48,751 nt of DNA from Bacteroidota bacterium (GTDB lineage Bacteria > Bacteroidota > Bacteroidia > Flavobacteriales_D > Sanyastnellaceae): assembly GCA_027624855.1 (NCBI GenBank), contig JAQBTQ010000018.1:1-48751 (forward strand). Reading direction: 5' to 3'. Below, piece after piece: positions 26,891-28,735 of this stretch (within the stretch, counting starts at the first letter, position 1; each line of letters starts with the position of its first letter). A model generated the notes under the pieces. It worked only from the letters and a program-made list of their open reading frames with translations, was not told where the DNA came from and did no database searches. The position numbers were made by a program, and so were the translations under genes.

Positions 26891-28030
26891 TTATCGCGAT
26901 TTTGGGATGCACAAGACATCTCCAATTCGAATGTGGTCTTTGATATCGTTGATTTCTTTGATCATATCAGGAGTCGTGCCAGGATATCGCTGGGATAAGT
27001 TCCATAGGGTGTCTCCTTTTTTGACTTCATGGAAAATGCATGGCTTCGATTCTTGGTTTTTGCCAGGTGAGGTTGGAGTATTCGTTGAAATAGGCAAACG
27101 GGGGGTGTATTCATTGAAATCGTCGCAACTCATCGTTTTTGATCCAATCCACCATGGAATGAATTGTTCAATGGTGGTCTCGGTTAATCCAAGCGATTGA
27201 ACCAATTCATTTTTTGAAAGACTGACATCACATGGAACAGGGCTCATGGAATTGCTGAATGCAATCCATTCAATTTGTGTATTCGGTACCTCGACATTGA
27301 CCATCATTCGACTGACAACGCGGTACAATCCGAGCCATGCATCGAGATCGTCATCACTGCCAGGGAGGGCATCCCATGTCATGGCAAATTCGACTCCTTT
27401 GGAAAACGCGACCAAGACGCGAATGGGGTCATCGGGAAAATTTCGCTGCAATTGTTGAAGATGATTTATTGCGGCTGCAGAGGAAGAGCTAGGGATGAAT
27501 CGCTCATCAATGCGGTCATTCATGGTCAATCCGGAATTTTTAGCGATTGTCCGATCCATTGACCACAGGCCATTTTTTCCGTCGGTGGTTGCGTGTCGAT
27601 GGTTGCAATGAGTTAGGAGCATGGGCAGCCATTGAAAAGCAGGAGGAAGCGAAGACTGATCCATTGAATTGCCTATATCACTCGAATACATGCTATACAA
27701 AATGCCCATTTGCTTCAATCGTTTTCCACTTTGATTCAAAAGGATTTGCATACAACGTGCTTCTAGGTGCTTGTCTTCACCCCATGGTTGAAGGGATTCT
27801 TCAAGTTCGTCGAGCGGTGGGATTGCACTCAGAATCGGGGGCATTCGCGAGTCGATGGTTTTTGAAGAAAGCGTATTATAAAACAAAGTGTAATCAGTTA
27901 GTTGAATTCTTCTGTCAAACTCCTGTGCCCAATTTTCCGGAGTTGTTTGGGCCAAAGTCCAAGTCAAACCCGCACAAAAATGTAAGGCCAGGGCCAACAT
28001 TGAACAGTATCTGAGTGCCTGATACGTCAT
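26891..28030 (-). CDS. LysM protein with degenerate lytic-transglycosylase domain
   Basis: This is a 379-residue exported protein with a signal peptide ending TLAQ. Residues about 127-215 align without gaps to the MltD-type transglycosylase core: LPPAFQWLP...NGLWS...IDERFIPSSSSAAAINHLQQL. The catalytic Glu of the LPxxES motif is replaced by Leu139 (LPMLLTHCN), the WQ glutamine by Ser, and the AAYN motif by VAFS. A C-terminal LysM domain (about 334-378, HEVKKGDTLWNLSQRYPG...IRIGDVLCIPK) should bind peptidoglycan. I infer a catalytically dead wall-binding protein, perhaps a regulator or scaffold for septal or envelope enzymes. It is transcribed away from the candidate small RNA. Confidence 0.82.
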   Translation of the reverse strand: MTYQALRYCSMLALALHFCAGLTWTLAQTTPENWAQEFDRRIQLTDYTLFYNTLSSKTIDSRMPPILSAIPPLDELEESLQPWGEDKHLEARCMQILLNQSGKRLKQMGILYSMYSSDIGNSMDQSSLPPAFQWLPMLLTHCNHRHATTDGKNGLWSMDRTIAKNSGLTMNDRIDERFIPSSSSAAAINHLQQLQRNFPDDPIRVLVAFSKGVEFAMTWDALPGSDDDLDAWLGLYRVVSRMMVNVEVPNTQIEWIAFSNSMSPVPCDVSLSKNELVQSLGLTETTIEQFIPWWIGSKTMSCDDFNEYTPRLPISTNTPTSPGKNQESKPCIFHEVKKGDTLWNLSQRYPGTTPDMIKEINDIKDHIRIGDVLCIPKSR

Positions 28031-28101
28031 GAATCAAAAGTAGATATGATTGGATTGGCTTCAATTATTCGATTAATCAAAGTTGTAATAATGATGAAAC
28101 G

Positions 28102-28132
28102 TTGTTTTTATGCGACATATTTAATATATTTG
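28102..28132 (+). promoter_or_regulatory. Bacteroidota-type promoter for a candidate small RNA
   Basis: TTG (28102-28104) and a perfect TATATTTG (28125-28132) are separated by 20 bases, matching the expected -33/-7 pair. Transcription would begin near 28136-28139, directly ahead of a stable hairpin. Confidence 0.6.
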
Positions 28133-28136
28133 ATAA

Positions 28137-28219
28137 TAGGTCATGGAACATTTAGTTCTTGGAGGACCTAGTTGTGAATCGTAGTGAAGCATCTGCAACG
28201 GCGGATGCTTCATTTTTTT
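28137..28219 (+). ncRNA. Candidate small RNA, about 83 nt, two hairpins
   Basis: A promoter match ends at 28132 and a strong intrinsic terminator ends at 28219, enclosing about 83 bases. The 5' hairpin has a 6-bp outer stem (TAGGTC 28137-28142 with GACCTA 28165-28170) and a 4-bp inner stem (GAAC 28146-28149 with GTTC 28155-28158) closing an ATTTA loop. A short single-stranded stretch (28171-28184) links it to the terminator stem. I do not recognise it as 6S RNA, SRP RNA or a known riboswitch. An alternative reading is a transcript for a 13-codon peptide (28143-28184). It could also be a terminated leader for the SRPBCC gene, but I see no alternative pairing that would break the terminator. 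Confidence 0.5.
28185..28219 (+). terminator. Strong intrinsic terminator
   Basis: TGAAGCATCTGC (28185-28196) pairs with GCGGATGCTTCA (28201-28212) over 12 positions with one G-U wobble. The pairing closes an AACG tetraloop and is followed by seven T residues (28213-28219). Confidence 0.85.
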
Positions 28220-28267: not shown

Positions 28268-28735
28268 ATGAAACTGCATCGACTCGAAACCACCCAATGG
28301 TTGCCATTGAAGCTGGAAGCGGCATGGGATTTTTTCAGTGTGCCTGAAAATCTTGATCGAATCACTCCTCCAGATATGTCATTTGAAATCCTCTCGGGTC
28401 ACGAACGTCGTGCTTTCGCAGGACAAATCATTAGCTATCGCATTCGACCTATTCTGAATATTCCTATGAATTGGGTCACTGAAATCACACAAGTCAAGGA
28501 AGGAGAATACTTCATCGATGAACAGCGATTTGGACCCTATAAATTCTGGCATCACGTACACCGTTTCACGGCTCAGGATGGGGGAGTATTAATGGAAGAT
28601 ACGCTTCATTATGCCTTGCCTGGAGGTTGGATTGGAGAATTGACTGGGGGATTCATTCACAAAAAAGTTCGTGGCATTTTTGAGTTTCGGGAACAAGAAT
28701 TGGAGCGAATTTTTTCCAGAGAATCAGCGGAATGA
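28268..28735 (+). CDS. SRPBCC-fold protein (polyketide cyclase/START-like)
   Basis: This is a 155-residue cytosolic protein of the SRPBCC superfamily. The diagnostic opening is LKLEAAWDFFSVPENLDRITPPDMSF, seen as WDFFSVPENLDRITPP. It continues with ISYRIRPILNIPMNWVTEI, a FGPYKFWHHVHRF strand pair, MEDTLHYALP, and the closing helix IFEFREQELERIF. These small stand-alone members bind hydrophobic ligands; some are annotated as cell-division inhibitor (SulA-like) by historical error. In-frame ATGs upstream (28184) would place the terminator inside the gene, so 28268 is preferred. It converges with the next gene with one base between stops. Confidence 0.88.
   Translation: MKLHRLETTQWLPLKLEAAWDFFSVPENLDRITPPDMSFEILSGHERRAFAGQIISYRIRPILNIPMNWVTEITQVKEGEYFIDEQRFGPYKFWHHVHRFTAQDGGVLMEDTLHYALPGGWIGELTGGFIHKKVRGIFEFREQELERIFSRESAE

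Follow-up and report, generated by a model that had tools for sequence, protein, structure and literature searches.

Comparison across genomes shows that positions 28137 to 28219 of the window (the whole stretch of DNA analysed here, 48,751 nucleotides of contig JAQBTQ010000018.1 from a member of the Bacteroidota) most likely encode an independent, structured and conserved RNA unit with its own promoter and terminator. This unit is probably a stand-alone regulatory small RNA, which would act in trans on mRNAs, pairing with their starts without the help of Hfq. The start of the divergently oriented neighbouring gene suggests that the RNA may turn down a cell-wall-cutting enzyme. The features of the region are as follows.

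26891 to 28030, minus strand: gene of a protein with SLT and LysM domains (Pfam PF01464 and PF01476), divergent neighbour of the RNA
28035 to 28042, minus strand: -7-like box TACTTTTG of the SLT/LysM gene, 4 nt before the ATG
28102 to 28132, plus strand: putative promoter of the small RNA, read directly (-33 TTG at 28102 to 28104, 20-base gap, -7 box TATATTTG at 28125 to 28132)
28137 to 28219, plus strand: small RNA of about 83 nt, from the minimum free energy fold, the genus alignment and the four-genus alignment
28137 to 28170, plus strand: 5' hairpin (outer stem 28137 to 28142 with 28165 to 28170; inner stem about 28145 to 28149 with 28155 to 28159)
28158 to 28167, plus strand: proposed seed 1, CUUGGAGGAC, on the 3' side of the 5' hairpin
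28171 to 28184, plus strand: unpaired linker GUUGUGAAUCGUAG, proposed as seed 2; its initial 13 bases are identical in 34 copies
28183 to 28219, plus strand: intrinsic terminator (14-pair stem, AACG loop, T run at 28213 to 28219)
28268 to 28735, plus strand: downstream gene, called SRPBCC in the original prediction; not part of the RNA unit

The original prediction, made from the letters of the window, placed a small RNA gene with a full promoter match in a 237-base gap between the LysM and the SRPBCC gene. This gap is indeed enclosed by the ORF starts at 28030 (minus strand) and 28268 (plus strand), and the promoter can be read directly as TTG-N20-TATATTTG, which fits the Bacteroidota sigma-A consensus. 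In a scan anchored on TATATT, the first six bases of the box, the -7 box was found at the matching place in 20 of 20 copies of the genus; all 20 share the following T and 19 the G, and the -33 TTG lies 19–20 bases upstream of the box in 18 of the 20. According to excerpts of a study on Flavobacterium (PMC9723704), the sigma-A box TAnnTTTG sits at -12 to -5. By this rule the +1 position falls on 28137, where the start of the RNA had been expected.

The minimum free energy fold of the RNA (-31.7 kcal/mol, z = -4.84; none of 200 shuffled sequences was as stable) reproduces the helices that had been described, i.e. the outer helix UAGGUC/GACCUA and the inner helix GAAC/GUUC. Both stems of the 5' hairpin are present, the inner one with five pairs including one G-U pair instead of the four proposed; the outermost U-A pair of the outer stem is not general, as the two bases do not pair in 10 of the 17 distinct copies of the genus. 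The terminator had been described with a 12-position stem, an AACG loop and seven T residues, all of which are there, and in the fold its stem extends to 14 pairs. A pseudoknot between GUUG of the linker and CAAC of the terminator loop is possible; both sides are invariant. With a putative promoter of its own, an intrinsic terminator and no conserved ORF, the locus has the properties of an intergenic small RNA, as judged by sequence signals only, and we infer that it is transcribed.

Conservation is confined to the unit. Kept flanks around changed stems would have spoken against an RNA, and the opposite was observed: within the genus the flanks are 35–38% and the RNA is 98% identical. In detail, the 58 nt from GGAGG to the T run have a mean pairwise identity of 98.1% (19 copies, ungapped), compared with 37.7% over the next 40 nt and 35.4% in the stretch upstream of the promoter (ungapped as well). 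Within the genus, compensatory changes occur in three pairs of the inner stem (alignment of 18 sequences). When copies from four genera of the same family are compared, both sides have changed in 17 of the 24 stem pairs, including five of six pairs of the outer stem and eight of 14 pairs of the terminator stem. Both hairpins thus show the compensatory changes that had been named as a check of the original prediction. In 34 copies (33 distinct) from the four genera, 95.1% of the pair cells are standard pairs, in an alignment which was fitted to the model and therefore favours the structure. The covariation score was reached by none of 500 shuffles, and controls with slid pairing dropped to 40–50% paired. 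These data argue for a conserved RNA structure maintained by compensatory changes. None of the 34 aligned copies departs from the linker sequence GUUGUGAAUCGUA, which the covariance-model search did not require, while the exact pattern scan described below did. The recurrence of the AACG loop is nearly confined to terminators fetched by the model itself.

The RNA was detected in 21 of the 22 genomes of the genus, and the sole genome lacking it (G016) is a bin of 63% completeness. In its own genome the locus was found once, by DNA search and by the RNA model alike. Of the 299 genomes of the order, 51 were matched by the covariance model. Two of these (G146 and G177) were weak and had no core and were discarded, so that 49 genomes remain: 21 in the genus itself (g1), 11 in g3, two in g9 and 15 in g10, where the copies of G206, G233, G247, G253 and G267 were not read individually under these names. 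An exact scan for the pattern of linker and terminator loop over 84,980 species, which demands an unchanged core and is blind to diverged relatives, returned 50 stretches, and 49 of them are this RNA. These 49 records, two of which are contigs of one bin, are labelled Flavobacteriales (41), Crocinitomicaceae (3), Bacteroidetes (3), Bacteroidia (1) and 'bacterium' (1). The fiftieth stretch (L100, Lysobacterales) is without the hairpins and was regarded as chance. The hosts are uncultured and apparently mostly marine bacteria; the names of several bins suggest that the samples came from sea water.

No convincing copies were found outside the family. A scan of the class with strict filters matched four of 395 genomes, namely the own genome and three without the core, and viral contigs gave no matches. 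When 24 genomes (family members that had given no match, together with G016 and G177) were searched with lax settings, weak matches appeared at 19 places in 12 genomes, and none of the 13 places inspected had the full core. Nine loci searched with the filters off reached at best 22.6 bits and likewise showed no core. Two further matches (L076 and L077) were judged to be chance. As stated in the original prediction, no known RNA family could be recognized: nothing in the whole window reached the gathering score of an Rfam 15 family, and a search of the locus at E values up to 10 yielded only weak matches, with scores far below the cut-off and none of them credible (best E 0.18). The RNA did not turn up in a text search of the literature, and its core sequence matched nowhere as text.

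Two further elements were observed during these searches. Three g3 genomes contain a second, shorter match (L073 1426–1480, L074 1520–1574 and L075 1456–1510), consisting of AGTTGTTAGTTAGAGAGGC and a GCAACGGC hairpin, which is either a diverged paralogue or merely a similar terminator. The motif TTTGGTTAAGG, a few bases before a terminator, is common to several weak matches in sister genera (L136, L138, L139, L141, L142, L149 and L150, near position 1500). In L139 it follows a promoter-like box and a hairpin; L265 and L272 resemble these matches, and GGTTAAG occurs also in L073 to L075. This element possibly represents a separate small RNA family.

The gene on the other side of the putative promoter encodes a protein with SLT and LysM domains, and due to these domains its product is probably a murein lytic transglycosylase. 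A box TANNTTT(G/A) precedes the ATG in 20 of 20 genomes of the genus, at a distance of 4 nt in 19 and of 6 nt in one; a regular -33 TTG was not found by eye for this gene. From the position of the box and the Flavobacterium promoter rule, the mRNA of the SLT/LysM gene is probably leaderless or nearly so. In F. psychrophilum, 5.5% of the mRNAs are leaderless, according to excerpts of PMC9723704.

In 11 of the 20 readable genomes of the genus (G004, with a contig end, and G016, in which the RNA was not found, are left out), the SLT/LysM gene begins with ATGTCCTCCAAG, and in those genomes the RNA segment CUUGGAGGAC is exactly complementary to codons 1–4 (AUGUCCUCCAAG) from the G of the ATG onward. 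The exact complement comprises 10–11 nt and covers nucleotides 3–12 of the coding sequence. At position 11 of the pairing, the RNA has C opposite G of the mRNA in two genomes, and U opposite A in seven and opposite G in two. A twelfth genome (G014) has one mismatch in the site. The remaining eight genomes, including that of the window, have other starts and no such site; G007 and G009, both genomes in which the RNA reads CUAGGAGG, are among those without it. According to a tree of bamA, from which G020 and G021 were left out, the genomes with the site stand on the main branches, including the earliest, and this spread makes an ancestral site with several later losses probable.

The codons at this site are frozen. 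For the codon test, starts were set by the promoter box and genomes were chosen by the amino acids MSSK only, which gave 11 genes; in G015 and G010 a longer frame runs from an upstream ATG, and the MSSK start rests on the promoter box. Selection by MS[SA]K gives exactly the 12 genomes with an exact or one-mismatch site, and MSSK the 11. Among 50 columns with invariant amino acids (M and W excluded), a single codon is used in all 11 genes only at codons 2, 3 and 4 (TCC TCC AAG), and no genome encodes MSSK otherwise. Elsewhere in the same genes, TCC accounts for 62 of 295 serine codons and AAG for 40 of 139 lysine codons. Kinship among the 11 genomes means that the codons they share do not count as independent; in a control within nine of them, bamA had six frozen columns of 224, versus four of 68 in the LysM gene of those nine. 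In larger controls with a different set of genomes, no column was frozen, neither among 71 of the SRPBCC gene (16 sequences) nor among 197 of bamA (20 sequences).

The predicted duplexes show the same distribution. Compared with 29 control genes of the window, all of which come from the window's genome, the duplex of RNA and LysM mRNA was better than every control in nine of the 11 genomes with the site; equally good pairing was seen for two controls in G017, one in G013 and five in G014, which carries the mismatch. In the eight genomes without the site, the pairing of the LysM mRNA is equalled or surpassed by between 2 and 18 of the 29 control genes. A scan of the genus for GTCCTCCAAG gave 156 places in 22 genomes versus 99 for the control, and no clear wider excess, as the copies of the RNA and the LysM starts are included in this count. 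Of these places, 49 outside the RNA were classified (from 30 returned loci, 20 hand-chosen stretches and one in the window, with further known LysM starts omitted); three overlap a start codon, and all three belong to SLT/LysM genes. Taken together, the codon usage and the pairing strongly suggest that in part of the genus the transglycosylase start is under selection to match the RNA.

The mechanism proposed here would begin with pairing of CUUGGAGGAC, which lies on the 3' side of the 5' hairpin in a partly open internal loop, with coding nucleotides 3–12 of the SLT/LysM mRNA. The outer stem, which holds part of this seed, would have to open. If the message starts at its AUG, the pairing would cover the initiation site, and translation would be repressed. 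The invariant linker GUUGUGAAUCGUA may serve as a second seed for other mRNAs, for which the leader of a TonB-dependent receptor gene is the best candidate. Since the window's own genome lacks the transglycosylase site, other targets must exist, and use of the linker as a second seed would account for an RNA that stays unchanged in such genomes. Pairing in the cell, repression of translation and the use of the linker as a seed are what we infer from these comparisons. Hfq was found in none of 60 genomes, and five of 14 control genomes were positive in the same search; because of this, the pairing would need another chaperone or none. The full version, in which a family-specific RNA uses one seed for blocking the 5' end of the leaderless transglycosylase mRNA without Hfq and an invariant one for targets throughout the family, has a little less than an even chance of being correct.

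With respect to the second seed, the TonB-dependent receptor gene (L204 to L210; named from its sequence) has a AGATTCACAAC-like block just before the ATG, which is complementary to the linker. It reads AGATTCA in six of seven orthologs and AGGTTCA in the seventh. The duplex energies are 2.6 to 4.4 standard deviations below those of simple shuffles in five of six leaders (the exception is L207; L209 was omitted), and this site, chosen after a scan, is to be taken as a lead. A scan of the window's genome for the linker complement gave 19 sites, including the RNA itself, versus seven for the reversed pattern. In the genus, GATTCACAAC occurred 180 times versus 27, where the reversed pattern contains TAG and is an unfair control. 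Among 28 of 30 GATTCACAAC loci that are not the RNA, two and perhaps three lie at gene starts, with a chance estimate of about 0.7, so that the linker complements show no more than a mild preference for starts. Linker complementarity over the genes called in the window was not above that of shuffled linkers. Two other candidate targets were discarded: the bamA site is in fact coding sequence of uppS, and the site of a lipoprotein gene is not kept in eight orthologs.

One more complementarity was noticed in G016. In locus L152, an ORF starting at about position 1540 on the minus strand is complementary to the linker (11 nt) and to the terminator loop (GCCGTTGC, 8 nt), in both cases within its first 35 bases. 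The locus had surfaced as a weak antisense match (E 0.416); the gene, observed in this one genome, encodes a secreted protein of at least 513 codons within the locus.

The invariance of the linker could also be caused by a protein. A 13-nt single strand and an AACG loop, both unchanged over four genera, might be expected if the RNA binds a protein with its linker, as a decoy or in the manner of 6S RNA, with base-pairing being secondary, and firm targets of the linker were indeed not found. This reading is unlikely, as pairing directly accounts for the frozen codons at the start of the transglycosylase gene, and the Rfam search gave no 6S match.

The repeated CTTGGAGGAC, once at the LysM start and once in the RNA, may alternatively be a pair of operators recognized by a protein on the DNA instead of a site of RNA-RNA pairing. 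The two copies are direct repeats on the same DNA strand, about 170 bases apart, and also agree at position 11, as operators would. Against this, the RNA keeps GGAGGACC within a compensating stem in g3 copies for which no adjoining LysM gene was detected, and the copy at the LysM gene falls exactly where the presumably leaderless message begins. Two operators are therefore quite unlikely, and pairing between the RNA and the mRNA start is preferred.

In g1 and g3, the SRPBCC gene lies downstream of the RNA, begins about 40–75 bases past the terminator and is oriented on the same strand, which would fit a 5' leader with a premature terminator, i.e. an attenuator or riboswitch. This gene itself had no Pfam match at E 0.001. 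Its position is not kept in the other genera: it was not found downstream of the RNA in g9, where in the two genomes (four loci) the next gene encodes a metallopeptidase on the opposite strand, whose aligned end is close behind the terminator, and in most g10 loci the RNA is followed by an RNase H-like gene and then by a distant relative of SRPBCC. In G113 the RNA sits just after a gene which, read by eye, resembles a histidine kinase. Moreover, the SRPBCC gene has its own short upstream region in genera without detected RNA. A cis-acting leader should be followed by one gene or pathway in all members, and here the downstream gene differs or converges. As it differs or faces the RNA across genera, the RNA is not the leader of one gene, and a leader of SRPBCC is improbable. 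The same arrangement supports the view of a self-contained unit. The observation behind the original prediction is confirmed by direct reading, and its interpretation as a small RNA gene gains support from the comparisons.

Two observations concern the SRPBCC gene as such. In L122 (G010), it appears to be broken into short pieces, and the RNA is intact. In genera without detected RNA, the gene seems to share an upstream region of the form GAACA...TATG.

A small peptide gene, for which GGAGG, a spacing of eight bases and GTG AAT CGT would resemble a Shine-Dalgarno start, is extremely improbable, because the frames in 51 distinct copies (240 nt read per copy) run from 15 to at least 80 codons without a common stop, the frame shifts inside the hairpin in four g3 copies (L064, L065, L067 and L071), the changes follow base pairs, and GGAGG is absent from most g10 copies and from the L064 type.

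The RNA forms a well-defined family: its core is conserved, a promoter is likely, and there is a concrete candidate target. If the pairing is real, a small RNA would act on a leaderless mRNA, which has no upstream region to block, and RNA control would be tied to peptidoglycan cutting in uncultured Flavobacteriales. To our knowledge, only a small number of regulatory RNAs have been characterized in Bacteroidota other than the gut genera. In Proteobacteria, MicA and RybB are Hfq-dependent small RNAs which control the envelope. Like these, the RNA described here would repress the mRNA of an envelope protein near its start codon; unlike these, its proposed target is the adjacent and apparently leaderless gene.

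Among the RNAs of Bacteroidetes, Flavo-1 (RF01705), Bacteroidales-1 (RF01693) and 6S-flavo (RF01685) likewise came from comparative genomics (excerpts of PMC2864571), and none of them matches the window at gathering score. Rfp18 of Flavobacterium psychrophilum is, according to excerpts of PMC9723704, a conserved flavobacterial small RNA with several mRNA targets predicted for one stem region. It occurs in another genus, and its predicted targets are proteases. GibS of Bacteroides thetaiotaomicron (RF04182) uses a conserved single-stranded seed to pair with translation initiation regions, as excerpts of PMC7366714 report, and at 17.1 bits, compared with a gathering cut-off of 115, the window RNA is not a homologue of it by this measure. 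Judged by the same excerpts (PMC7366714), both are intergenic small RNAs of Bacteroidota with a terminator at the end and a shared type of promoter, and they differ in that GibS has about 145 nt and uses an open 5' end as seed. In comparison with these systems, the RNA of the window is a new RNA family of an established sort, with an unusual proposed target.
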